Below the pieces are notes generated by a model. That model did no database searches and was not told the DNA's origin. It saw only the letters and a program-made list of their open reading frames with translations. From Methanolobus bombayensis (GTDB lineage: Archaea > Halobacteriota > Methanosarcinia > Methanosarcinales > Methanosarcinaceae), in NCBI RefSeq assembly GCF_017873415.1, contig NZ_JAGGKD010000012.1:1-59036 (forward strand): 59,036 nt of DNA. The letters are read 5' to 3'. This document shows, one piece after another, positions 7,377 through 22,856 of this stretch. Position 1 is the stretch's first letter. Each line of letters opens with the position of its first letter. The position numbers were made by a program, and so were the translations under genes.

Positions 7377-9601
7377 CAATTCATCCCCACGTGTGTGGGG
7401 AACTCATTGGTCCACGATTCGGCACTTGATTCGAGGGCGGTTCATCCCCACGTGTGTGGGGAACTCTCTCTGATTTCTTCTTCATCCCTGGGAGATCTCG
7501 GTTCATCCCCACGTGTGTGGGGAACTCCCTTCTTAAAGCATTGTTTTCCCATTGAAGTTCGGTTCATCCCCACGTGTGTGGGGAACTCTCTTCGGGGTAG
7601 TTTCCAGTGCATGTAAATCACGGTTCATCCCCACGTGTGTGGGGAACTCAATTGCTGCTGTTCACTATTCAGATTAGGTAACGGTTCATCCCCACGTGTG
7701 TGGGGAACTCGTTGTGCTAGGGAAATCGATAGCAGTATTGTACGGTTCATCCCCACGTGTGTGGGGAACTCCCTTGCCTTAACATGACAACCAACACATA
7801 GAACGGTTCATCCCCACGTGTGTGGGGAACTCTCCTTAACCTCATCAGCTACATAGATAGTAACCGGTTCATCCCCACGTGTGTGGGGAACTCGAAAACA
7901 GTATTATATATTTCATATAATTTTTCGGTTCATCCCCACGTGTGTGGGGAACTCATGACATCGTTACCGATGTTTTTTATATCATCCGGTTCATCCCCAC
8001 GTGTGTGGGGAACTCTTCGTTCGAATCCACACTTCCCCGGTAATTCGCGGTTCATCCCCACGTGTGTGGGGAACTCCAGAGATTAACACCGAGCACGTTA
8101 AACGGTCACGGTTCATCCCCACGTGTGTGGGGAACTCGACATCAGAAAGGAACTAAAAGAAGATGGTGTCGGTTCATCCCCACGTGTGTGGGGAACTCAT
8201 AATAGCGTTAGCTCTGACTCTACAGACGAGCGGTTCATCCCCACGTGTGTGGGGAACTCTGAATTTACGGACTATGTTACCGGCAATACGTCGGTTCATC
8301 CCCACGTGTGTGGGGAACTCCTCAGATACAGGTACAATCCAGTTACATAGAACGGTTCATCCCCACGTGTGTGGGGAACTCTAGTTCAACAGTTCTCATC
8401 TTATGATCTCCTTCGGTTCATCCCCACGTGTGTGGGGAACTCTAGGACAGGTTTACGGCCAATGGTGGTGGGTTCGGTTCATCCCCACGTGTGTGGGGAA
8501 CTCCAAACATTTTCAAGTGAGGGTTACATGAAAGCCGGTTCATCCCCACGTGTGTGGGGAACTCATACCCGCCGCTTTTTTCCTTATCCTTAGATTCGGT
8601 TCATCCCCACGTGTGTGGGGAACTCTCTGGATTGAAATTACTCCTGTGTACGGGCTTCGGTTCATCCCCACGTGTGTGGGGAACTCATCACCATCGTCTG
8701 TAATTTGATGTATAGGTGCGGTTCATCCCCACGTGTGTGGGGAACTCTTCATATCTCTTAATAGTGGCCATATACCGGGCGGTTCATCCCCACGTGTGTG
8801 GGGAACTCAGCAGAAGACACAACCACGGACGGTACACTGACGGTTCATCCCCACGTGTGTGGGGAACTCTCCGACATTTGTAGCTGTTGGTGGTGGCTTC
8901 GCGGTTCATCCCCACGTGTGTGGGGAACTCCGCCACTGTTGTTTTTGATGACATCGCGCAGTCGGTTCATCCCCACGTGTGTGGGGAACTCCAGGTACAA
9001 GTCAAGAGCTGGCGATCCTCTTACGGTTCATCCCCACGTGTGTGGGGAACTCATACGGGCAAAGATTGAATGTTGCACCAACTACGGTTCATCCCCACGT
9101 GTGTGGGGAACTCCCTGCAAGACAGCTGCAACAAATGTCCTGAAATGGTTCATCCCCACGTGTGTGGGGAACTCGAGAGAGATCCTCGCTTTGACGAGTT
9201 CTACGTCGGTTCATCCCCACGTGTGTGGGGAACTCTCTATTTTTGCCACCAGACCGGTCACATCGTCCGGTTCATCCCCACGTGTGTGGGGAACTCTTTG
9301 AAGTTTCTGGTCTTGTTGATTCCACTGTCGGTTCATCCCCACGTGTGTGGGGAACTCAACGAATATCTCGGATGGGTACAGGGGTCAAACGGTTCATCCC
9401 CACGTGTGTGGGGAACTCTCATGAATGAGTTTGATGATTATTTTGATTGGCGGTTCATCCCCACGTGTGTGGGGAACTCTCTCGGTTCTCCGGTTTCTCG
9501 TTCTGGTTCTTCGGTTCATCCCCACGTGTGTGGGGAACTCGCTTGTGACGGTTATGACAACACACTCTTCTCCGGTTCATCCCCACGTGTGTGGGGAACT
9601 C
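7377..9601 (-). CRISPR. Type I-E CRISPR array, 37 repeats and 36 spacers
   Basis: I traced every repeat start: they fall at 7377 + 61n up to 9573, so each 29-bp repeat is followed by a spacer of exactly 32 bp. The repeat reads on the minus strand as GAGT-TCCCCAC-ACAC-GTGGGGA-TGAACCG, with a perfect 7-bp stem and a 4-base loop, the hairpin expected for Cas6e. The leader end is at 9601, beside cas2. The distal repeat at 7377 is degenerate (CAA in place of CGG on the plus strand), and the repeat at 9146 has a T for the first C. All spacers look unique by eye. The apparent ORFs on the plus strand through this region are translations of the repeat. Confidence 0.98.
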
Positions 9602-9736: not shown

Positions 9737-10925
<1,189 letters not shown>

Positions 10926-11609
10926 TCAACGAATAGGACGTACAAGAAGCAAACCACAGCCAAAACCTTTAGCAGGACCAATTCCATTAAAAAGTACTTG
11001 TTTAAACAGCTCTGGTTCAGTTACCGTTAAAAACCCGGTAAAATCAATAGTATTGAAGCTGACATGATGTTTACCACTTGGTTTGTAGAATTTGTGCTTC
11101 CGATAGCTATCCGCACGTACTTTATTAGAATCAATTAAAAAACCATTCTTTTCAGCCTTCTTCTGCAACCATTCAACACCTTTCGTCTGAACAATCTCAG
11201 AGATATCAGGATAGACAGCATTTCTTTTGTTTTCATTTTTTATACGAAACTTTTCATCCATGACCACATCATGCCTATGCTGTTTTCCTTTCTCATCTCT
11301 TTTTGAAACAATTGGATTTGCACGAAGAGAAAAAGATAGATTCTGCCCGGATTTTAATATTGGATCATATTGCTTTACATCGATATCCCACAGACCAGAT
11401 TCATCTTCCGGCTCCCTTTCAGATACAAAGTAAAAAGCAGGTAATTTTCCGTCTGATTCCTGACGATATATAAAACTCCTTTTATCGTCAGCACCTCTTG
11501 AAAATATAGGCCATACCAAACGGTGAATATTATAGCTGTTTCCCATATTTTTCCATGAGGTTTTATTTGAGACTACAGCCGGAAGCAAGCGTGCTCTACT
11601 CATATACAT
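10926..11609 (-). CDS. cas6e: Cas6e crRNA-processing endoribonuclease
   Basis: A 227-residue Cas6e (CasE/Cse3). GGAGG at 11618-11622 lies eight bases before the ATG at 11609, which gives MYMSRARLLP, matching the E. coli start MYLSKVIIAR; the longer in-frame start at 11624 is less likely. H29 in NIHRLVWPIF aligns with the catalytic histidine of E. coli CasE (H20). The C-terminal glycine-rich segment NGIGPAKGFGCGLLLVRP is the hallmark G-loop. It cuts the array transcript within the repeat and stays on the crRNA in Cascade. The gene overlaps the end of cas5 by 10 bp. Confidence 0.96.
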   Translation of the reverse strand: MYMSRARLLPAVVSNKTSWKNMGNSYNIHRLVWPIFSRGADDKRSFIYRQESDGKLPAFYFVSEREPEDESGLWDIDVKQYDPILKSGQNLSFSLRANPIVSKRDEKGKQHRHDVVMDEKFRIKNENKRNAVYPDISEIVQTKGVEWLQKKAEKNGFLIDSNKVRADSYRKHKFYKPSGKHHVSFNTIDFTGFLTVTEPELFKQVLFNGIGPAKGFGCGLLLVRPIR

Positions 11610-12346
11610 GTATCTTTCCTCCAATCAAGCATCGAATAGTATTCCTTCCTATCTGAGAACTGCCACCTTTTCCGGCTCAATATATTATCACGTCTGGAGA
11701 CACTATGTTCGAATGCGATATCTTCTTCAGGATTATCCCAATAGAATCTGCAAACACCATCATTGATTAATTTCCTGACAAAAGCTTCATCTTTAAACTC
11801 AGCATTCGTAAGTGCTTCTTTCATATTAGAACCAGATACTATTATTGGATCAAGGGGGAGTGATAAAGGACATGATTTTCTTCCAAGATACATAGAAAAT
11901 GAAGGCTTTTTCAGACTGTTGCCAATCGTTTCAAGAGAATAAGGCGGATTATCAATTGTTGAAGAAAGAATCACGGTATAAAGTCCGTCACAATAGTAAT
12001 CTCTTGTCGAAAGAATAGTATTTAATTCATATTTTGGAACAGCAAGTTCATCTTTCCTTGTTAAAAATTTCTTCTTATTTCTGCCTTTACCTGAAGCAGG
12101 AACCTGAGACGTGTGATAATCACGAAGCATAACGCCTGAAGAGTTTATAAGAACTCCATAATGATAAGCAGAAGCCAGCTCCAGTTGTTTTTCTTCTTCG
12201 TCCCTACGAATACCCAGAGCTGCTCCCAACAGACCGAATATCGCTGATTTTGAAGGGTGATCAAAACTAGGCCTGTAGGGACCTACTGCAATGTCACCCC
12301 ATGAAACCATTGGACCGTATAAGCGGAAAATCAAATAATCTTTCAC
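11600..12346 (-). CDS. cas5: Cascade subunit Cas5e (CasD)
   Basis: A 248-residue Cas5 of type I-E. The N-terminus FRLYGPMVSWGDIAVGPYRPSFDHPSKSAIFGLLGAALG is the conserved Cas5 RRM region, and the glycine-rich segment near 38-46 is typical. GTG start at 12346 with AGGAG upstream. The protein binds the 5' handle of the crRNA and closes one end of the Cas7 filament. It lies between cas7 (20 bp gap) and cas6e (overlap). Confidence 0.95.
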   Translation of the reverse strand: MKDYLIFRLYGPMVSWGDIAVGPYRPSFDHPSKSAIFGLLGAALGIRRDEEEKQLELASAYHYGVLINSSGVMLRDYHTSQVPASGKGRNKKKFLTRKDELAVPKYELNTILSTRDYYCDGLYTVILSSTIDNPPYSLETIGNSLKKPSFSMYLGRKSCPLSLPLDPIIVSGSNMKEALTNAEFKDEAFVRKLINDGVCRFYWDNPEEDIAFEHSVSRRDNILSRKRWQFSDRKEYYSMLDWRKDTCI

Positions 12347-12366: not shown

Positions 12367-13485
12367 TTAACTGCTTACAAACTTCAGCATTTCTTCTAGA
12401 CTACCTTCTCCTGTATAGGCATTCATATCCAGTCTTTCCTCGCAGCAGTCACCATACACATGTTCCATTTTTTCATTTGTTTTCTGGAGAGACTCTATAG
12501 CATTTTTCAACATGTTTCTCCCTTTTACAGGTTCTAGATAGGAAACTGAAAGTGAACGTGGTTGTTGCTTTCCTTTTTCTATCATCATGTATGAAGCATA
12601 TGCTCTTGAAGCAAAACTATTCTGTTTGCCTGTAGGAGAAACTTTTGCCATTGATTCAACTAAAGCACATAAAGCATTATTTGCAAGCTCTTTATCTCCA
12701 CCAAGATTGCTTTCCAGAAGTTCACGATCAATACAAACATACGTATAGAAAAGACCAGATGCAAACTCTGTTTCACCAAGATGTCCTGAACCCATGTCCT
12801 CATCCCCTCTATTCAGATCATCAACTGCTGTGAAAAAATCGTCTTCAACTGCAACTTCGTTGGTCGTAATAGCATGAGAAACTTGTACTGCTGCTTCAGT
12901 ATTGAATTTTGTATTAGATGCAAGCATACGTCCGAACATAGCAATATCTACAGCGGTGTGGTCCTTTCTCAAAAGATTAAGTTCATCTTTAGAAGGAGCG
13001 CTCCCACTTGATGATATTTTAGTTATAAGCTGATCAATCGCAGATATCTCTTCTGGACTGAAATGTGCCAACTGTTCTATTTCGAGATCCACTAAGGAAT
13101 CTTTCGCTTCTTTATTGGAACCTTTTTTGGATTTTCCAAAAACACCGGCTATTGCTTTAGACCACTCTTTCGCTTCTTTTTCAGAAATAATTGAATTACT
13201 TGATGATACTTCAGTATTGTCTTTCAATATATCTACTAAACTAAGACCAGTTGTCAATGCCTTAAAAATATTAACGCCCATGTTTTTTGTGCGGATACCA
13301 ATATGACTACCAAGGCTTTCTTTGAAGATATCTGATGTCCTCCAGGCTCTCTTAAGACTCTGTGAAGAGACCCTGAGTCTTTGAGTTCCACCCATAACAG
13401 CAGTCTTTGGTCTTCCCAGGTCATCACGGTTCAAATTGGATGGGGGATACGATACGAGTGTATGTATTTGTACAAATTTTGTCAT
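12367..13485 (-). CDS. cas7: Cascade backbone subunit Cas7e (CasC/Cse4)
   Basis: A 372-residue Cas7 of type I-E. The N-terminus FVQIHTLVSYPPSNLNRDDLGRPKTAVMGG and the following QRLRVSSQSLKRAWR are diagnostic of Cse4. GGAGAG lies six bases before the ATG at 13485. Six copies form the crRNA-binding backbone of Cascade, so high expression relative to other subunits would be expected. The middle third contains a Lys/Ser-rich stretch (KSKKGSNKEAK), probably the flexible thumb region. Confidence 0.96.
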   Translation of the reverse strand: MTKFVQIHTLVSYPPSNLNRDDLGRPKTAVMGGTQRLRVSSQSLKRAWRTSDIFKESLGSHIGIRTKNMGVNIFKALTTGLSLVDILKDNTEVSSSNSIISEKEAKEWSKAIAGVFGKSKKGSNKEAKDSLVDLEIEQLAHFSPEEISAIDQLITKISSSGSAPSKDELNLLRKDHTAVDIAMFGRMLASNTKFNTEAAVQVSHAITTNEVAVEDDFFTAVDDLNRGDEDMGSGHLGETEFASGLFYTYVCIDRELLESNLGGDKELANNALCALVESMAKVSPTGKQNSFASRAYASYMMIEKGKQQPRSLSVSYLEPVKGRNMLKNAIESLQKTNEKMEHVYGDCCEERLDMNAYTGEGSLEEMLKFVSS

Positions 13486-13503: not shown

Positions 13504-14007
13504 TTAACTTTTTGTTCCGGGTGCTTTTTCATAGTAACTGTAAGCCCATTCTTTCTTTGTGATATCATTCCACCAGTAGAGACTGTTCGCAAGGTTGCAG
13601 GCATTGACATTTCCATCCATTAACTTAACAATTCGAACAATTGAACTGAACAGTTCTTCCTTGTCCTTGATTTTTAATAGTCTCTTAAAACGTAACCCGC
13701 TAACCTGTGCATTTGAACCATCTTTGACACTTGCCATTTGAGAAGCAAATGATTCTCCACCCTGATGATTTTTCACATGAGCCATCACTCCGGCAATTAC
13801 TGCAACAGAGTCCCTGTTTCCAAACCCAATCTTGTTTAAAGTCAACCACAATTTATGGTAAGCCGGATTAAACACCACATCCACAGTATTGTGGCATCTG
13901 CGAAGATCTGCACGATCTCCTCGATTATTGTCCAAATCCCTCCACCATGTCAGTAAAGCCTGACATGCTTCTGGATTTTTTTCCAAAGAACTTTTCTTTA
14001 TAGTCAA
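13504..14007 (-). CDS. cse2: Cascade small subunit Cse2 (CasB)
   Basis: A 167-residue alpha-helical Cse2. Matching features are LLTWWRDLDNNRGDRADLRRC near the N-terminus, the segment AVIAGVMAHVKNH, and GLRFKRLLKI, which carries the conserved basic residues that contact the displaced DNA strand. Start: AGGTGA at 14014-14019 lies six bases before a TTG at 14007, which I prefer to the TTG at 14013 that touches the SD. Two copies run along the Cascade belly. Confidence 0.92.
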   Translation of the reverse strand: MTIKKSSLEKNPEACQALLTWWRDLDNNRGDRADLRRCHNTVDVVFNPAYHKLWLTLNKIGFGNRDSVAVIAGVMAHVKNHQGGESFASQMASVKDGSNAQVSGLRFKRLLKIKDKEELFSSIVRIVKLMDGNVNACNLANSLYWWNDITKKEWAYSYYEKAPGTKS

Positions 14008-14052
14008 TTCCAATCACCTTTTCAAATACAATTATAGTACAATCAAACATTG

Positions 14053-15639
14053 TTATTTTTTAGATTTCTCAGGCAATCCCAGAGTCTTTCTTATTTTCTT
14101 ACCACCTTCGTAATTGTATCTTCTAAGATCTCTGCGAGCTAAAGCTACTCTTTCAGGATCAACTACACTGAATTGCATGGATTGAGAGTATTGATCAAAC
14201 AATCTTTCAGATACTTTTGAAAGACTCCTAACCCATTGTATTTTCAAATCAATGGCATCCGAATTACTTTCCAGTGCGGAGATTAATTCATTGAGTACAT
14301 GATAAAATACAGATTCTGTATCATTCCAGAATCTGGAATCGATAAAAGAGATATCTCCTCTAATCGGATTTTTGCCGTATAATGCTTTTTTTGTGCAGCC
14401 TTTTGTATTATCACCTATAATTTCAGCAGTCTTTATCAGTTGAGATACGATGGATTCATAAGAGAGCCTGATATTCTCAGGAACATTGAACAAAGGCATA
14501 ATACTTTCATACCAGCAACGGACCTTCATATTATCGAAATCATAACCGAATGCCCATAGTTGAGGAGACCGTTGGAATACATTATCCAAATTTGCCAAAT
14601 CCAACTGTTTCCCTACAAATCGTTCAAAAGACAAAGAAGGATGCTGTCCATTCTCAGGGTCATTTTGAACCAGACCCAGCCAGTGGCGATAAGTTATGCC
14701 ACCAGGCCCCGGATGAAGTGGTATTATATTATCTTTTGTTTCACGATGCGGACTCAGGACATGGCACCAACCTCCTTCATAGTTTACTCCGTAATTCTTT
14801 GTAACATAATGTGAGACAAGTCTGTCAGATTCACATCCACATACATCGCAGACCCCATCCCCGAGATCATCAAAATCAATACTAATTCTACGTGGCATTC
14901 CCCAATACATTTGTTTGGGATTTACGCTCATTGGAGTTGTTTCCGTTCCTTTCTTTTCACTTGTACGGGTGGGTCCCATCCACGGATAAATATCACTTAT
15001 TGCATTATGATCGATATCACCTAAACTTTCAAAATTATTTTCTGAAATTATATTCAACCAAATTGTTTGCCAAAGATCGTTACCCAGAACTAAAGTGGTC
15101 AAAGGTCCACCACCTCTGAGTGAAGTGCGATAACCTTTTCCACCCGTAGGAGCATTTAATTGTAAATTGAATAATGCAGTTGCACAACAAGAAAAACACA
15201 TTTGTGTCACTGTGTCTCTCTTTAAAAAGTGGTCTACGTTATTACTAATTGTGTTACTACCTGGCATTTCCATAAGCAACACATCCACCCTATTTTCAGT
15301 CCCTTCAAATGGTTCATAACCCTGCATAAAACGTTCGTTTTCCCCGTCCAGATTGAAAACATGAGATACACTGTTAAATATCTCCAATAATTTATCGGGT
15401 TTTGGAGGTGCTGTAAAATGTTTTCTCCATTCCCTTTCATTGTTAGGAGACATAGTAGTTTGTACTAATCCGATTAGAAATTGAATCAGAGAACCATTAA
15501 AATCAGGGCGTGGTGCAGCCAGAGAAATTATAGGATTCGAATCCAATTTGCCAGTAATCTCCCATGGAGCTATCTGTTCCTTTTTACCATCCTGTCTATT
15601 TACCCATATCCATTTTTCATGAATCAAATTAAAAACCAT
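14053..15639 (-). CDS. cse1: Cascade large subunit Cse1 (CasA, Cas8e)
   Basis: A 528-residue Cse1. The opening FNLIHEKWIWVNRQDGKKEQIAPWEI, the segment APTGGKGYRTSLRGGGPLTTLV and HPGPGGITYRHWLGLV are conserved family stretches. A CDVCGCESDRLVSHY motif around 265 supplies the two Cys of a zinc-binding knuckle. The C-terminal four-helix bundle ends with ALARRDLRRYNYEGGKKIRKTLGLPEK. Cse1 recognises the PAM and recruits Cas3. The start at 15639 is 16 bp after the cas3 stop. Genes cse1 to cas2 form one transcription unit with cas3. Confidence 0.95.
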   Translation of the reverse strand: MVFNLIHEKWIWVNRQDGKKEQIAPWEITGKLDSNPIISLAAPRPDFNGSLIQFLIGLVQTTMSPNNEREWRKHFTAPPKPDKLLEIFNSVSHVFNLDGENERFMQGYEPFEGTENRVDVLLMEMPGSNTISNNVDHFLKRDTVTQMCFSCCATALFNLQLNAPTGGKGYRTSLRGGGPLTTLVLGNDLWQTIWLNIISENNFESLGDIDHNAISDIYPWMGPTRTSEKKGTETTPMSVNPKQMYWGMPRRISIDFDDLGDGVCDVCGCESDRLVSHYVTKNYGVNYEGGWCHVLSPHRETKDNIIPLHPGPGGITYRHWLGLVQNDPENGQHPSLSFERFVGKQLDLANLDNVFQRSPQLWAFGYDFDNMKVRCWYESIMPLFNVPENIRLSYESIVSQLIKTAEIIGDNTKGCTKKALYGKNPIRGDISFIDSRFWNDTESVFYHVLNELISALESNSDAIDLKIQWVRSLSKVSERLFDQYSQSMQFSVVDPERVALARRDLRRYNYEGGKKIRKTLGLPEKSKK

Positions 15640-15655
15640 GGTATTACCTTCTTCA

Positions 15656-18409
15656 TTATTTATTTATACAGAGACCAATTTCCGAATTGTAAACTAACTG
15701 GATTTGGTTGTTGTATTTGTCTTTTGCAGTACCCTTCCAATTATCCCCGTCTTCCGAGAACATAGGAATCAATATACTCCACTTACCTTTGTCTTTCATT
15801 GAATCCTGAACTTTTTGGATTAATTCATTAACTTCCTTTCCATAGTCCTCTGAGTACCTAATACGGCCACCACTAACACATAACTGGCTCAGTTCCCATG
15901 AAAAAGTATCAGATTTTACCATAGGAATAAGTATTCCATCTTCAAACCGTGCAAGGCGAATGTTCACCGATTCACCAAGGCGAGTTGGAGTTACAACGTC
16001 ATCCAGCCATTGAGTACCCGAACGTTCATAACCCTGTGAAAAGTTTAAAGACTTGAAATTAGCCATGGAGGTTTGAGCCATTGAATCTCCATAGGCACGT
16101 TCATCAAGAACTTTTAATTCAGAGGGAACTTTGGTGCTAGCATCTTTGCCAAAAACACCCTCTATGAAATATCGACTTTCATCCGGTATACAGAATTTTC
16201 TGCGTTCTGCAAGCAAATTAGCAGTAAGCCACAATTGTCCGTGAGATTGGTAAACATATGCCCCTTTAGGGAACATATCCGAATACCAGTCTGCTGAGAT
16301 TTCCCCGTTTAATTTTGGAGAAAGGATTCCGAGAAGAGGAATGCCTCGTTCATCGCAATCACTTAAAGCACCATTTTTGTCACGACAATGGCGTTGTAAA
16401 CGACCAGCTCTCTGAAAAATCAGATCAATTGGAGCAAGATCAGTAACCATATAATCAAAATCTATATCCAAAGACTGTTCTACAACCTGCGTTGCTATCA
16501 GCACTTTACCCTTACGTTTTTGAACATCAGTTTCTTTTCCGAATGTATTAAGAACATCATTTTCAATATTCAGGCGATCTCCCATTACATATCTTGCATG
16601 GAAAAGGATTACAGACTCTTTTCCCAGCTCAGACACAAGTGTATCATATGTTTCAATTGCATCATCAACAGTATTGCGAATCCAGCAACAACACTTTCCC
16701 TCAATTGAACATTTAACAAGCTTTTCTCTGATTGATGATTCATCATTGAAAAATTCAACATTTACAGTACGTTCCGTACCAGCACGAGGTTCTATTTGAA
16801 TTTCCGAAAGATCACTTTCACAAACATGTGTTATAAGAGGATAGTTTCCACTGGAAATGCCCTCTATCGAGTAACCGCGTCCACGACAAAAATGTGACGC
16901 CAGCTCCTGACGATATTTAATTGGTAGTGTGGCGGAAAGAAGAATTGCACTACCACCCAATGAAGCATGGAACTCCAAAAGACTGCATAGCAATCTATGC
17001 ATATATGGATCATATGCATGAACCTCATCAACTATCAGGACATTACGTGATAAACCCAGTAATCTCAGTGATTGATGGTTCGAAGGAAGAATTCCAAGCA
17101 AAGCCTGATCAATAGTTCCTACACCAACATTAGCAAGCAGAGCTTTTTTGCGATTATCAGCTATCCATGTAGAACATTGGAAGGAAACGGTATCATCATC
17201 TGACGAAGAATATCCATAATTACTATTTTCGTCACTCTCAACCCCAATAGATTTACTGTAAACGTCCAATAGGTGACTTTGACCGTGCGCAAGCACAAGT
17301 GAAGGAAGAGAATTATGTTCATACAATTTTTTGTGAGAATCCACTAACCTTCCATACATTGCATTAGAAGTTGCCATTGTTGGCAGACCAAAATAAATAC
17401 CGTTTGCAATACCCTTTGCCATTATACGATGAGCCAAACATAAAGCAGCTTCTGTTTTGCCACTTCCTGTAGCATCTTCCAATATGAAAAGTTGAGCATT
17501 ATCCGCAATAAAACAGCTCGATATATGATCTTGCATTGGACTCGGAACATCAACTTTAGGAAAGAGAATACCCATTCCAGTAATTAGTGAAATCACTGAA
17601 GGCAAAATACCTGAATTGTTCAGCGCTTTTTCTGCTGAAGGCAAAGCGTATTTTTCCCAATACTCCTCCAGAGGAATGGAGGTTGAGAAATATGGGAACT
17701 GCTCGTTTGAAGAACCAATCCAATCACTTACTATTACAGTGCCTGCAAGCAACCACGAAGTACTCTTGAATGCAGTTTCCAAATCTTCAAATTCATATTC
17801 ATAGCCCTCAGGTCCAGAGAGACCTTTGAAAGCATCTTTCAATAACAAAGATGATACTTTTTGTACATATGAACTTGCCATTGCGAGGTCTTCTTCAGTA
17901 AACAATTCATTTTGATTCACCGCAAGTCCATTGTCCATATATCGTTTTGGAGGATTTCCATGATGTCCTGTTACTGATATAACCCATGGAAGAATAAGGT
18001 CATTCCAATCAAATGAATCAAAAGAACTTTTGTCCAGACAAAGCCAGTTTTCATTCCATACAGTTTGCCAGATCGTTCTCCAGAGGTAAAAACCCATGCT
18101 GTCATGTCGTAAAATGTAACTTTTGTTACTACCATGTCCTCTTAAAGACATTAGTATATCTGGTTGAAGATTTTGAAATCTTTCTGAAAATTTACCTAAA
18201 TCATGAATTGCAAGATAGAATGATACCAATGAAATTATTTGTTCATCATTTAGTGGAATATAATCTTTAAATTTTTGCAGAATCAGGTTGTCTTTTCTCA
18301 ATAAGAGATTTCCTGTTGCAGCTACATCTAAACAATGGTATGCCAATAAATGATAATCTGAATTGGAATTACTATCTGCAAAAACAGACTTCCCCCAATT
18401 CTTATACAT
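15656..18409 (-). CDS. cas3: CRISPR-associated helicase-nuclease Cas3, type I-E
   Basis: A 917-residue Cas3. The HD nuclease is N-terminal: H in AYHCLDVA (residue 25), HD in AIHDLGKF (69-70) and TGHHGNPPK (about 147). The SF2 helicase follows: Walker A EDATGSGKTE (about 312-319), DEVH (461-464), SATLP, and the motif V-VI region VVEQSLDIDFDYMVTDLAP with QRAGRLQRH. I start it at the ATG at 18409, because MYKNWGKS then aligns with the E. coli start (YWGKSSKS). An in-frame TTG at 18481 would add 24 residues with no family match. It unwinds and degrades DNA found by Cascade. It is the first gene of the cas operon. Confidence 0.95.
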   Translation of the reverse strand: MYKNWGKSVFADSNSNSDYHLLAYHCLDVAATGNLLLRKDNLILQKFKDYIPLNDEQIISLVSFYLAIHDLGKFSERFQNLQPDILMSLRGHGSNKSYILRHDSMGFYLWRTIWQTVWNENWLCLDKSSFDSFDWNDLILPWVISVTGHHGNPPKRYMDNGLAVNQNELFTEEDLAMASSYVQKVSSLLLKDAFKGLSGPEGYEYEFEDLETAFKSTSWLLAGTVIVSDWIGSSNEQFPYFSTSIPLEEYWEKYALPSAEKALNNSGILPSVISLITGMGILFPKVDVPSPMQDHISSCFIADNAQLFILEDATGSGKTEAALCLAHRIMAKGIANGIYFGLPTMATSNAMYGRLVDSHKKLYEHNSLPSLVLAHGQSHLLDVYSKSIGVESDENSNYGYSSSDDDTVSFQCSTWIADNRKKALLANVGVGTIDQALLGILPSNHQSLRLLGLSRNVLIVDEVHAYDPYMHRLLCSLLEFHASLGGSAILLSATLPIKYRQELASHFCRGRGYSIEGISSGNYPLITHVCESDLSEIQIEPRAGTERTVNVEFFNDESSIREKLVKCSIEGKCCCWIRNTVDDAIETYDTLVSELGKESVILFHARYVMGDRLNIENDVLNTFGKETDVQKRKGKVLIATQVVEQSLDIDFDYMVTDLAPIDLIFQRAGRLQRHCRDKNGALSDCDERGIPLLGILSPKLNGEISADWYSDMFPKGAYVYQSHGQLWLTANLLAERRKFCIPDESRYFIEGVFGKDASTKVPSELKVLDERAYGDSMAQTSMANFKSLNFSQGYERSGTQWLDDVVTPTRLGESVNIRLARFEDGILIPMVKSDTFSWELSQLCVSGGRIRYSEDYGKEVNELIQKVQDSMKDKGKWSILIPMFSEDGDNWKGTAKDKYNNQIQLVYNSEIGLCINK

Positions 18410-18481
18410 ATCACCCAATTTCTTGTCACTCCCATAGATTAATGGCAATATAAATGAACTACAAGTAATCAAATAATTCAA

Positions 18482-18624
18482 GTGTCAAATGATTACTAAA
18501 AGTATAACTGTATACCTTAGATATATACTTTTTTATAGCAACTAAAAACAATACCACATCCAATACTAAATATCCATACATACCCCAATTACAAATATAT
18601 ACCTCTACCACATATCAACATTCA
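18482..18624. promoter_or_regulatory. Divergent cas3/csa3 promoter region with a perfect dyad
   Basis: The intergenic region contains a perfect 9-bp inverted repeat, AAAAGTATA (18498-18506) and TATACTTTT (18524-18532), with a 17-bp spacer containing GTATAC. On the minus strand AAGTATATAT (18521-18530) is TATA-like and would set the cas3 start point near 18498. On the plus strand AAATATAT (18593-18600) is TATA-like and centred about 27 bases before the csa3 ATG, suggesting a leaderless csa3 mRNA. The dyad overlaps the cas3 TATA and is a good candidate operator, possibly for the Csa3-like protein. Confidence 0.5.
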
Positions 18625-19224
18625 ATGCCTGATCTAACTCTAATCACAACACTATATACCCTTGACCCCGTACTGGTCTGCATAACACGCCTTTCGCCAA
18701 CCAGAGTAATAATACTCACAGAAGACGGAGCTGTGGACAAAAAAGTCCAGGCAGAACAGATGCTTGAAACTACTTTTGGGAAAGTAATCGAAATTCAGAA
18801 AATAATTACCTCGCTCTATAATCCGGTGAGAGTTGCACAGGATGTTGCTGATGCCATCGAAAAGGAGCATGACTGGGGTAACAAAGTAGTTATCAACGTA
18901 TCCGGTGGCAGGAAGCCTCAGGCTTTCGGGGCGCTGTTCGGAGCCTATGCCCGGAGTGACATGGTCAAGAGAGTTGTCTATGTGACAGAAGAAGATAATG
19001 TCATGATAGAGTTCCCGATACTGGGATTCAACATATCTCCCACCAAAAAGGCCATTCTTGAACATATAAAACAGGGTGAGAAGACAGTAAGTAAGATCGC
19101 TGTAAAGGTTGGGATCTCCAGAGGGATGGCCTATAACCATATTCGGGAATTGAAAGATATGGGTTATATCTCAGATGAGGATGGTTTCGACATAACCGAT
19201 TCTGGAAGGCTTGCAGTAATTTAA
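18625..19224 (+). CDS. csa3: CARF-domain winged-helix regulator, Csa3-like
   Basis: A 199-residue protein. Residues 1-135 form a Rossmann-like CARF domain: a hydrophobic first strand (LTLITTLYTL), ILTEDG near 30-35, and the signature NVSGGRKPQAFGAL at 91-104, the loop that binds cyclic oligoadenylate in the family. Residues 138-199 are a winged helix-turn-helix (SPTKKAILEHIKQGEKTVSKIAVKVGISRGMAYNHIRELKDMGYIS). This is the Csa3 layout. Csa3 proteins regulate cas and adaptation genes in Sulfolobus, usually alongside type I-A or III systems. Here it sits 143 bp from, and divergent to, a type I-E operon. Ligand: cyclic tetra-adenylate is the usual one in the family, but no Cas10 is in this window to make it. 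Confidence 0.82.
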   Translation: MPDLTLITTLYTLDPVLVCITRLSPTRVIILTEDGAVDKKVQAEQMLETTFGKVIEIQKIITSLYNPVRVAQDVADAIEKEHDWGNKVVINVSGGRKPQAFGALFGAYARSDMVKRVVYVTEEDNVMIEFPILGFNISPTKKAILEHIKQGEKTVSKIAVKVGISRGMAYNHIRELKDMGYISDEDGFDITDSGRLAVI

Positions 19225-19296
19225 TCATTATTTACTTTTTTAGAGCTCACTGTAAATGCAAAAAATTAATTCGGATAAGTGACTTTACCTTTATCC

Positions 19297-20010
19297 ATGA
19301 AAGAACTATACCTTAACGATTGTTACCTGAAAGAGTTTGATGCTACTGTTGAAAGCGTAAAGGACGATAAATTCGTGGTTCTGGACCAGACAGCTTTTTA
19401 TCCTAAATCCGGTGGCCAGCCACACGATACCGGTAAACTTGTAAGAGAGGACGGAACTGAGTTCCCGGTGATCTTTGCAGGAAAATTTGACGGAAACATA
19501 AGCCATGAAGTTTCAGTTCCAGGACTTAAACCCGGTGATAAGGTAAAAGGTATCATTGACTGGGACAGAAGATACCGCTTCATGCAGTATCACACTGCAT
19601 GTCATATACTAAGTGCAATAATCCACAATGAAACAGGTGCCAGAATAAGCGGAAACCAGCTTGGGGAAGAAAAAACACGGGTTGATTTTAATCTGGAAAA
19701 CTTTGACCGAGAGCAGATAGCTTCCTATGAGAGCAAGGTCAATGAGGTTATAGACAGAAATATTCCGGTCAGCATAGATATAATGTCCCGTGAAGAAGCT
19801 TTCAGTATTCCCTCTGTTGTCAAGCTCAAGGATGCATTCCCACCTGAAATCGAGAACATAAGGATAATCACTATCCCCGATATTGATATACAGGCATGTG
19901 GAGGTACACACATTGCAAACACAGGGGATATTCCCCACATATCAATAATAAAAGCAGAGAACAAAGGAAAGAACAACAGGAGAGTCTATTTCAAATTTGT
20001 CGATGAATGA
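19297..20010 (+). CDS. alaX: Alanyl-tRNA editing protein AlaX
   Basis: A 237-residue AlaX of the medium (AlaX-M) type. The N-terminal beta-barrel includes TAFYPKSGGQPHDTG, the strand conserved in the AlaRS editing region. The zinc ligands are H99 and H103 (HTACH) and C201 and H205 (CGGTH). The protein hydrolyses Ser-tRNA(Ala), and possibly Gly-tRNA(Ala), in trans. I chose the ATG at 19297 (MKELYLNDCY) because it matches the family start; an in-frame GTG at 19279 would add six residues. No strong SD site precedes either. It runs towards the sensor kinase and is probably transcribed alone or from csa3. Confidence 0.9.
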   Translation: MKELYLNDCYLKEFDATVESVKDDKFVVLDQTAFYPKSGGQPHDTGKLVREDGTEFPVIFAGKFDGNISHEVSVPGLKPGDKVKGIIDWDRRYRFMQYHTACHILSAIIHNETGARISGNQLGEEKTRVDFNLENFDREQIASYESKVNEVIDRNIPVSIDIMSREEAFSIPSVVKLKDAFPPEIENIRIITIPDIDIQACGGTHIANTGDIPHISIIKAENKGKNNRRVYFKFVDE

Positions 20011-20036
20011 AAAGGATCTAGTATTATTTTTAAAGG

Positions 20037-22427
20037 TCATTCAGTATCGTGGATCTCAGGATTGAACAGAGGCAGGGATAAATGAACTGTTGTTCCAACT
20101 CCTTCCTCACTTTCCACCTCTATTGTTCCGGAATGCAGTTCAACAATATTCTTTGCCAGATACAGACCAAGACCATTACCTCCGTGAATGCGAGTGGCTG
20201 ATCCGTCCACCTGATAGAACCTGTCAAATATCCTGTCCATACATGCACCGGGTATGCCTATACCATGGTCAGTGACAGTAATCTGCACGTCTTTATCTCC
20301 TTCAAGTGCATTTATGGTTATTTCTGATCCTTTTGCTGAGAACTTGATCGCATTGTCAAGAATATAAACAAAAAGATATTTGAGGAATTCACCATTACCA
20401 TAAACAAGGTGCATATCTGAAGGATATTCTTTTACAACATTTACGTCATTATCTTCTATTTTTAAGGAAAGACTGTTAATCGAATTGTCAAGAACGTCTT
20501 TTAAATGTATAGGTGAAAGTACATGATATTTCTCAAAATAAAGGGAGTTCATATTGAGTAATGATTCTATAAGCCTTTCCAGACGCTCTGAGTTAGAAAC
20601 AATGACCTTCATACACTGCTTTTGCTTTTCTTCCAGGTCACCCAGAAGACCCTCATATATTACTTCACTATAACCTTTTATAGAAATAAGAGGTGTCTTT
20701 AATTCATGGGTTATATTGGCCACAAACTCGTCTTTCATCCTGTCCAGTGATTTCAGTTCTTCATAGGCTTTACGTGTTTCATTAAGAAGTCGGATATTCT
20801 CTACGGTGATACCTATCTGATGACCCACGTTGCCCAATATATTAAGGTCGGACTTTGAAATGATGGTATCTTTATCGGGCAGTAGCAATATAAAACCCAC
20901 AAGCTCTTCCCGGGCTATTATAGGCACGTAAACTAATTTCCCGATATTTTCACTGATAATAATATCTCTCAAACAGCCTTTTATTTCACTAACTTTTCCT
21001 GTGATCCAGGTATCCTTCATATACGGAATGATCTGGAAAAGGGGGTCATTCTCTTGTAAACAGTCCAGTTTTTTAGTAATTTCATCCCTGAAACCTGTAG
21101 CTGAACAAAGAATAAATTTGTTCTCAATAGAATTGAAAAGATAAACAGAACCTGTAGAGCAATCAACATAAGAGTTTATCTCTTTAAGAATCTCTCTGAG
21201 AAAATCCTGCATCTCAACTGAAGTTGCGGCAATCATGGCAGTTGATTGTAGTATCAGAAGATTGCGGTTCTTTCTCTGGAGATCTTCCTGAGCAAGTGAT
21301 ATTTCAGTAATATCCTGAGTAGTTCCCCGAAATAGTACTCTTCTTCCTTCGCTATCCCACGTTACTTCACCAAGAGAGTGAAGTATGCAGATCCTGCCAT
21401 TCTTTCTTATCAGCCTGGCACGCACATCAAATTTATAACCGGGAATTGTAAGTGCCAGTTCCACAGCAGAATTAAAAACATCCCGGTCTTCCGGATGCAT
21501 GCGCTCAAGATAGGTATCGCGGCTAATATTCACTTCACTGGGAGCATAACCCATGATCCGGTACATTTCCTCTGACCAGAAATGTTTCTTTGTACGCAGG
21601 TCGATCTCCCAGCTTCCCACACGGGATATCTCCTGCGCCCTTGCCAGTCTTTCACGGTGTTTCAGGATGGATTCTTCTGCTTTCTTTCTTTCAATACTAT
21701 CGATAAAAAGATCGCCTACGACCCTCATTAGTTTGACATAGTTCTGTGACCATTGCTTTTTACGTCCAATGGTATCAAATCCCAGAAAACCTATCATTTC
21801 TCCATCAGACTGTAAAGGAATAGAGAGAACTGATCCAATGCTTTCCTGTTGTAATACACTTTTTTCTTTGCTGGCAGATGCAGGCAGTTTTGATGTGTCA
21901 GGTATATGGACTATCTCAGGGCTGGCCATCTTTTCCATCCACCAGGGAAAATCACGGCCGGGATAATAGTAAATTTTCCTGTTGTCCATATTATTAGTAT
22001 GCCATTGATATACAGTATCAGTCTCTTCCGGTTCAGAGGATAATAATGTTAAATAACTGCGATCTGCATCTGCAAAATCAGCTATTTTTTTTAGTGACTG
22101 CTCAATGGCATCGTCAATATGTTCCGATTTTTTCCCGATAAAATTAGAAGAAATTTCTGCGACAAGATTTTCAAACCTTAACTGAGAGAGAAGCTCAGAT
22201 TCTGCATACTGGCATTTACGTGCCATTTTTGAAACTGTCATCCCAAAGAGAAGAAAAACAAGAAAAACAAAAGAACGTACATAGACATCATAAAAAGTCT
22301 CTTTTTGTTCCATGGAAAAAGGCAGTATATTGTGAGAAAAGAGCAGATGCACTACATAAGTATCAGCAACCAGAAATGTAAGACCAAAAAATATTGAAAT
22401 CAGTAGTATCTTCACGTCTTTTTTCAT
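20037..22427 (-). CDS. Membrane sensor histidine kinase (GAF-PAS-GAF-HisKA)
   Basis: A 796-residue kinase. Two hydrophobic helices (about 5-25 and 55-78) anchor it. Then come GAF (about 90-245), PAS (265-385, with VGSWEIDLRTKKHFWSEEMYRI and a PAC ending GTTQDITE), GAF (400-560), HisKA with canonical H-box FVANITHELKTPLISIKGY, and HATPase with DNAIKFS, DHGIGIP and GGNGLGLYLAKNI. I start at the ATG at 22427, after AGGA; the in-frame TTG at 22466 is weaker. The short extracytoplasmic loop (about 28 residues) suggests that sensing is mainly by the cytoplasmic GAF/PAS parts. No response regulator is adjacent. It is convergent with alaX. Confidence 0.9.
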   Translation of the reverse strand: MKKDVKILLISIFFGLTFLVADTYVVHLLFSHNILPFSMEQKETFYDVYVRSFVFLVFLLFGMTVSKMARKCQYAESELLSQLRFENLVAEISSNFIGKKSEHIDDAIEQSLKKIADFADADRSYLTLLSSEPEETDTVYQWHTNNMDNRKIYYYPGRDFPWWMEKMASPEIVHIPDTSKLPASASKEKSVLQQESIGSVLSIPLQSDGEMIGFLGFDTIGRKKQWSQNYVKLMRVVGDLFIDSIERKKAEESILKHRERLARAQEISRVGSWEIDLRTKKHFWSEEMYRIMGYAPSEVNISRDTYLERMHPEDRDVFNSAVELALTIPGYKFDVRARLIRKNGRICILHSLGEVTWDSEGRRVLFRGTTQDITEISLAQEDLQRKNRNLLILQSTAMIAATSVEMQDFLREILKEINSYVDCSTGSVYLFNSIENKFILCSATGFRDEITKKLDCLQENDPLFQIIPYMKDTWITGKVSEIKGCLRDIIISENIGKLVYVPIIAREELVGFILLLPDKDTIISKSDLNILGNVGHQIGITVENIRLLNETRKAYEELKSLDRMKDEFVANITHELKTPLISIKGYSEVIYEGLLGDLEEKQKQCMKVIVSNSERLERLIESLLNMNSLYFEKYHVLSPIHLKDVLDNSINSLSLKIEDNDVNVVKEYPSDMHLVYGNGEFLKYLFVYILDNAIKFSAKGSEITINALEGDKDVQITVTDHGIGIPGACMDRIFDRFYQVDGSATRIHGGNGLGLYLAKNIVELHSGTIEVESEEGVGTTVHLSLPLFNPEIHDTE

Positions 22428-22856
22428 ATACAATCCTGCTGCAAAGAGAATAATTAATTTTGGCAATATGGATGCCTTAATCTATTTTCAACGGCTTTTA
22501 GACTATGTAAATCTAATATAGAGGATTTTATATATATCTTCCTATTTTATCCGGGAAAACACAAATGAGAAGGCATTCATACAGAAACACAAGGAAGAAA
22601 GAAGATAATTTTAGCCTGGCTATCAATGTATTGTTACAATTCACCTTTATAGTATCATGTACTTAAGTTTTTAAAGAGACAAGTATATGTAAAATGACGC
22701 ATTCACGAAGTAGGTTAAAATAGGTTGAGGTCACTTGAACTGAACCAGGGACTTACAGGACATTATGTAGAAAAAGATATAATTGCATTTGTCATTTAAA
22801 CCTATTAAATCAAAATGAGCAATTAATTATTGCATTTATCTGCGGAGATATTCAAA
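22428..22856. promoter_or_regulatory. 429-bp intergenic region between kinase and serA promoters
   Basis: No gene found. TTTATATATAT around 22527-22537 reads as a TATA box for the minus-strand kinase, and AAGTATATGTAAA near 22681 is TATA-like for serA. That would leave a serA leader of about 150 bases. A 33-codon ORF at 22565 has no SD and no recognisable product. Confidence 0.35.

Follow-up and report, generated by a model that had tools for sequence, protein, structure and literature searches.

The window analysed here is the whole 59,036-nucleotide stretch of Methanolobus bombayensis DNA (contig NZ_JAGGKD010000012.1), and its subject is the gene for a 199-residue regulator, combining a CARF domain with a winged helix-turn-helix (wHTH), that stands head to head with cas3 of a type I-E CRISPR-Cas operon. 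The regulator probably represents a Methanosarcinales-specific clade of Csa3-like CARF-wHTH factors, whose gene and bidirectional promoter together would form a regulatory cassette that faces varied defence operons and controls them. On gene content, the predicted partners of this cassette comprise type I-E and type I-B operons, BREX, and islands of UvrD/RecB and DdmDE-like genes. CARF domains are generally taken as receptors for cyclic oligoadenylates (cOA) made by Cas10, and no Cas10 is detectable in the window's own genome (G000; 3.12 Mb, 35 contigs, 99.98% complete). With paralogues found at BREX and DdmDE-like islands, the question is less why a type I-E operon is the partner than why the partners are so diverse.

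The Csa3-type identity proposed by an earlier sequence-only reading is borne out by the profile TIGR01884, which matches the regulator at 117.9 bits against a cut-off of 60.2. The CARF domain spans residues ~1-130, with motif 2 (NVSGGRK) at 91-97, and the wHTH follows at ~138-195. PADLOC matches include CARF3 (PDLC01849, 8.8e-91) and CasR (4.7e-39), while HTH_5 and HTH_24 are among the wHTH Pfams matched. The AlphaFold model, with a predicted local distance difference test (pLDDT) value of 92.6, displays a CARF Rossmann fold and a C-terminal wHTH, in agreement with the Pfam matches and with Foldseek pairing to Csa3. The top Foldseek matches are the CARF-wHTH ring nucleases Sis0811/SSO1393 (E 3e-9, TMq 0.63-0.66), and the Csa3 structures 2WTE/6WXQ, with or without cyclic tetra-adenylate (cA4), are also paired with the model (E 3.8e-9). 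Sequence search against solved structures returned no significant CARF match and only a weak likeness to Can2/DUF1887 (E 0.014), the closest among solved CARF domains, with which the regulator shares VN[IV]SGG.K. The gene and the operon that it faces are arranged as follows.

18625..19224, plus strand: CARF-wHTH regulator gene, 199 aa (profile matches, AlphaFold model, Foldseek)
18410..18624, no strand: predicted shared intergenic, bidirectional promoter region (sequence; same layout across orthologues)
15656..18409, minus strand: cas3 (profile matches); the open reading frame (ORF) opens at TTG 18481 (941 aa), with the probable start at ATG 18409
14053..15639, minus strand: cas8e (casA/cse1; profile matches)
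13504..14013, minus strand: cas11e (cse2; profile matches)
12367..13485, minus strand: cas7e (profile matches)
11600..12346, minus strand: cas5e (profile matches)
10926..11624, minus strand: cas6e (profile matches)
10002..10925, minus strand: cas1e (profile matches)
9737..10039, minus strand: cas2e (profile match; start codon inferred from the match)
7379..9599, no strand: type I-E CRISPR array, 61-bp period, 36 exact repeats and one degenerate terminal repeat

The sequence-only reading had described a regulator divergent from a complete I-E operon, and this arrangement is confirmed: Cas3, Cas8e, Cas11, Cas7, Cas5, Cas6e, Cas1, Cas2 and the array are all present, with the CARF gene and the operon divergent and head to head at cas3. 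The interval 18409-19224 that it assigned to the regulator holds the gene in its part 18625-19224 on the plus strand, and the remainder is the intergenic region with the probable cas3 start codon, 18409, on the minus strand. This start is preferred because the Cas3 proteins of relatives align from ~residue 24-25 of the 941-aa ORF. Two outward-facing TATA-like boxes lie in the shared region, at ~18595-18601 for the CARF gene and at ~18521-18527, on the minus strand, for cas3. The box before the CARF ATG is separated from it by 24-30 bp, a spacing that would fit a leaderless transcript, and such boxes are the sole consistent element in the upstream regions of orthologues.

Orthologue neighbourhoods were fetched and clustered. 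In Methanosarcinales the regulator stands head to head with cas3 in 16 I-E loci and with cas8b in ~16 I-B loci (assigned to I-B by cluster, one representative Cas8b being confirmed by profile), and two more loci carry it at another, putative Cas8 cluster, likewise assigned by cluster. Types I-E and I-B are both regular partners in this lineage; conservation next to I-E in related genomes, on which the sequence-only reading had staked its proposal, is upheld, and its view of I-E as an odd partner is wrong for the lineage. Among 200 relatives, 20 of the 25 genomes with Cas8e carry the CARF regulator (Fisher p 6e-10, kinship ignored). The family is nearly confined to Methanosarcinales: a survey of 393 genomes from the phylum gave 32 matches, 29 of them in this order. 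Among the I-E loci that initially appeared to have no regulator, that of G093 holds a remnant, that of G110 is truncated by a contig end, and three more are unassignable. The remnant in G093 (L135) sits beside the I-E cas3, and in G031 (L130) a CRISPR array upstream of cas3 occupies the usual place of the regulator, which is found elsewhere in that genome.

The window's own genome contains two further full copies of the regulator, 72-73% identical to that of the window, and one C-terminal fragment. The full copies are placed as follows.

L005:9242-9841: copy 2, head to head with a BREX operon
L006:10063-10662: copy 3, head to head with a UvrD/RecB and DdmDE-like island

Copy 2 faces divergent genes for a tetratricopeptide repeat (TPR) protein, a UvrD/RecB helicase-nuclease, a PbeA-like helicase and BrxF; those for BrxC, PglXI, GajA, GajB, the BrxH helicase, PglZ and BrxA come after them on the same strand. 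The set BrxF, BrxC, PglXI, BrxH, PglZ and BrxA is complete for type 3 BREX, the type being assigned by gene content and the PADLOC helicase model being named BrxHI|BrxHII. Copy 3 faces genes for UvrD/RecB, a DdmD-like helicase (2e-51) and a DdmE-like protein (1.8e-8), after which DUF499, a DUF1156 methyltransferase and a PLD-helicase follow on the same strand (L006:11083-19711, L009:55-9426, contig C4). A search of the 20 kb surrounding each of copies 2 and 3 found no CRISPR repeats. Gabija is represented within the BREX operon by GajA and GajB, whose genes lie between those for PglXI and BrxH (L008:9982-13670, contig C2). The fragment, at G000:C4:237710-237862 (L004), covers residues 149-199 only, is 61% identical and lies ~2.2 kb from copy 3.

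The partner has changed repeatedly along the regulator tree, in which 52 proteins, sorted under five partner labels, require 15 switches of class, against an average of 27.7 for shuffled labels. An I-B-linked member is nested in the Methanolobus I-E clade (support 100/97), and in G091 and G100, which hold both kinds, the I-B copy is 96.5% and 98% identical to the I-E copy, respectively, the two forming sister pairs that are moderately supported (93/91 and 91/56). Copies 2 and 3 of the window's genome are mutually 93.5% identical, and their upstream 300 bp retain 64-100% identity in 25-bp bins (mean ~80%, compared with 56% for shuffled sequence), despite first divergent genes that are unrelated. 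The I-B and I-E copies of G100 exhibit the same upstream conservation to a lesser degree, those of G091 weakly. Conservation of the ~300 bp upstream of copies 2 and 3 suggests that the gene and its bidirectional promoter were duplicated as one cassette; gene conversion between the copies would give a similar pattern.

The absence of Cas10 from the window, noted by the sequence-only reading, is supported by the lack of any match among the window proteins scanned. Two explanations had been offered: that a distant type III system provides the messenger, or that the regulator senses something else. Over the whole G000 genome neither the Cas10 palm model PF22335 nor the RAMP model PF03787 found a match, and the Csm1 model TIGR02578 matched over no more than its first 77 positions (HD region by position), at 21 bits. 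Cas10 in the same genome, as expected of a Csa3 coupled to type III, is seen neither here nor in the closed genomes G001 and G026, which likewise have no RAMP match. For G000 a messenger from a distant type III system is accordingly rejected, no Cas10 and no RAMP having been found, and the alternative that remains is that the regulator senses something other than cOA from type III.

The regulator is carried by 10 of 27 Methanolobus genomes, 9 of them without Cas10, including the one-contig G001 and G026; PF22335 together with a set of RAMP genes occurs in G023 only, with single weak RAMP matches in two others. In G023, a draft assembly, the regulator gene is split into two overlapping reading frames. 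The Cas10-bearing G084 (L093) also has its regulator broken in two frames, like G023 (L097). Over the 200 relatives, 33 of the 50 regulator-bearing genomes show no Cas10 match; Cas10 matches number 46, some weak, and the 17 genomes with both are an upper figure at the threshold used. The weak positive association between CARF regulator and Cas10 (odds ratio 2.1, p 0.05, kinship ignored) supports neither exclusion nor dependence. Among other messenger sources, a CBASS-type cyclase in G000 is unlikely, the SMODS nucleotidyltransferase model having given one match below its cut-off (25.3 of 26.5 bits) in a 461-aa frame at G000:C5:66191-66553 (L129). A cyclic di-AMP (c-di-AMP) cyclase was found in all 27 Methanolobus genomes searched.

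The ligand pocket was compared with that of Csa3 by placing the motifs by hand, motif 1 from secondary structure. Across 40 orthologues, motif 2 (N91-V-S-G-G-R-K97), E123 and D124 show hardly any or no variation, and E123 is invariant. Relative to Csa3 motif 2 (small-small-G-Phi-R), this placement of S93-G94-G95-R96-K97 retains the small residues and the Gly, while Lys stands in place of the Arg and Arg in place of the hydrophobic residue. Csa3 motif 1 (Phi-G-F-(N/D)-x-zeta-F, in the beta1-alpha1 loop) is not matched, as G and F are absent from T9-[LI]-Y11-x-L-[ED]14-P15-V16. In Csa3, cA4 is contacted by Gly96, Arg98 and Glu122, and its adenine by Gly9-Phe10 of motif 1 (PMC8844856). Lacking the motif 1 Gly-Phe, the regulator departs in one respect from the definition of the cA4-binding Csa3 subgroup; cOA binding is not thereby disproved, and the predicted pocket looks fit for a nucleotide.

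The regulator was compared with several characterised proteins. Csa3a/Csa3b of Sulfolobales (PDB 2WTE, 6WXQ, 6W11) resemble it in CARF and wHTH domains, fold, TIGR01884 membership and, by hand placement and in part, motif 2 and the Glu of the beta5-beta6 loop, whereas identity is ~15% and the G000 protein has no motif 1 G-F-(N/D); Csa3 partners type I-A systems in cells that also hold type III, while the partner here is type I-E with no type III found. For the ring nucleases Sis0811/SSO1393, the top structural match, the catalytic GxS/T is not seen in the beta1-alpha1 loop of the regulator family, and ring nuclease activity is not predicted for it. The WYL regulators of BrxR type, in the accessible text of their reports (PMC9122601, PMC9122589), similarly form one family at many different defence systems, but they are bacterial with a WYL ligand domain, and the present family is archaeal with a CARF domain.

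The accessible text of the report on MM_0565 of M. mazei Go1 (PMC7465815) describes a dimer, encoded by a leaderless gene, that binds its own promoter with a dissociation constant (KD) of 285 nM and is stabilised under salt stress; a deletion was unobtainable, and oligoadenylate is not mentioned in that text. As described there, MM_0565 resembles the present regulator: its CARF-wHTH gene measures ~0.6 kb, stands in divergent orientation to a type I operon at the first cas gene, and is leaderless, as the present gene may be. Methanosarcina orthologues, ~59-65% identical to the G000 regulator, mostly occupy this MM_0565-like I-B position. The two differ in that M. mazei is reported with I-B and III-C, a possible cOA source, whereas G000 has I-E and no Cas10 was found; partners of the I-E, BREX and DdmDE-like kinds are not described for MM_0565 in the accessible text. 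Already known are MM_0565, CARF-wHTH regulators as such and, from a general remark (PMC4012209), Csa3 genes located outside CRISPR loci. The literature search, with the 2020 CARF classification outside its scope, found no description of one CARF-wHTH clade heading I-E, I-B, BREX and DdmDE-like operons, and priority is not established.

In the cassette model, a dimer of the regulator would bind AT-rich DNA in the shared intergenic region and repress its own leaderless promoter, an autoregulation for which MM_0565 lends support. It may also set the output of the divergent defence operon, as the conserved position suggests; the M. mazei data give no direct support for this step. Within the two-fold CARF pocket, a ligand of nucleotide type would alter the wHTH geometry and thereby release or switch control, and in G000 this ligand could not come from a recognisable Cas10. 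It is possible, as a tentative extension, that one CARF-wHTH lineage serves as a common second-messenger switch for CRISPR I-E, BREX with Gabija and the DdmDE-like island in one cell, responding to a nucleotide made independently of Cas10. c-di-AMP is a guess at this ligand, prompted by the ubiquity of its cyclase in the Methanolobus genomes and by the salt effect on MM_0565 in the accessible report (PMC7465815); if true, immunity would be coupled to osmotic or cell-state signalling. To find alternative ligands, those who solved the Csa3-cA4 structure called for Csa3 homologues from Cas10-less organisms (PMC8844856), and the G000 locus and its closed relatives are such cases, with close copies at I-E, I-B, BREX and DdmDE-like operons. 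Both the ligand and a shared defence regulon become testable in culturable Methanolobus and Methanosarcina species.

Several observations weigh against control of the facing operon by such a cassette. Five I-E loci truly have no regulator neighbour (G031, G044, G051, G063, G067), a fact that would suit a chance insertion of the gene beside the operon; this explanation has next to no probability against 16 I-E loci with the same orientation, the co-occurrence with Cas8e (p 6e-10) and a gene order at the I-E locus common to four Methanolobus genomes, and the conservation survey contradicts it, so that a chance neighbour is rejected. A common palindromic operator, sought across the loci, was not found, the inverted repeats present in several upstream regions having no shared position. 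MM_0565 is a probable orthologue of the G000 regulator, judged through the Methanosarcina orthologues and not by direct sequence comparison, and in the accessible report it did not bind the cas8b promoter, while its overexpression changed 55 genes and left cas genes unchanged (PMC7465815). The same text records binding to I-B and III-C leader DNA and to the cas1-solo promoter of a casposon, which would agree with main targets away from the facing operon, such as CRISPR leaders, the casposon cas1-solo or other genes, and with a head-to-head position due only to co-inheritance with defence islands. We consider this unlikely, as the divergent position is kept across unrelated partners, among them the BREX and DdmDE-like islands, at which no CRISPR array was seen, and the array leader of G000 is not significantly similar to the intergenic DNA (a fraction of 0.24 of the shuffles scored as high).

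The nature of the signal invites two further explanations. The CARF domain may no longer sense a diffusible ligand, leaving a constitutive dimeric autorepressor that buffers costly defence operons; DNA binding by Csa3 in vitro is indeed independent of cA4 (PMC8844856, PMC8699464), and no cOA source was found in G000. Near-invariance of N91-K97, E123 and D124 in the 40 orthologues suggests selection on the pocket and makes this explanation quite unlikely. Alternatively, the protein could be a classical cOA-responsive Csa3, bound by cyclic tetra- or hexa-adenylate from a type III Cas10 that was missed, lies in an assembly gap or arrives via a mobile element. Csa3 of S. solfataricus binds cA4 (PMC8844856, PMC8699464), the regulator's fold matches cA4-binding CARFs and its motif 2 resembles that of Can2. 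A more distant member of the regulator family, moreover, lies within ~5 kb of a Cas10 match on the same contig in G152, G155 and G184, by which cOA sensing may be the ancestral function; this too counts against the favoured cassette model. We nevertheless regard a classical cOA response as very unlikely, given the lack of Cas10 and RAMP genes in G000 and the closed relatives, the two overlapping frames of the regulator in the draft assembly G023, the sole Cas10 genome of the genus, and the absence of the motif 1 Gly-Phe needed for adenine stacking. The distant members in question (L089, L090 and L091, of G152, G184 and G155) are 58-59% identical and sit between a gene for an AAA/DUF4143 protein and small cas2-like and Csa1-like genes.

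Downstream of the regulator, the window carries genes for an AlaX-like protein and a histidine kinase (19279-22466), which are common to G001, G007 and G025; these shared neighbours indicate that the I-E locus occupies the same chromosomal place in four Methanolobus genomes.

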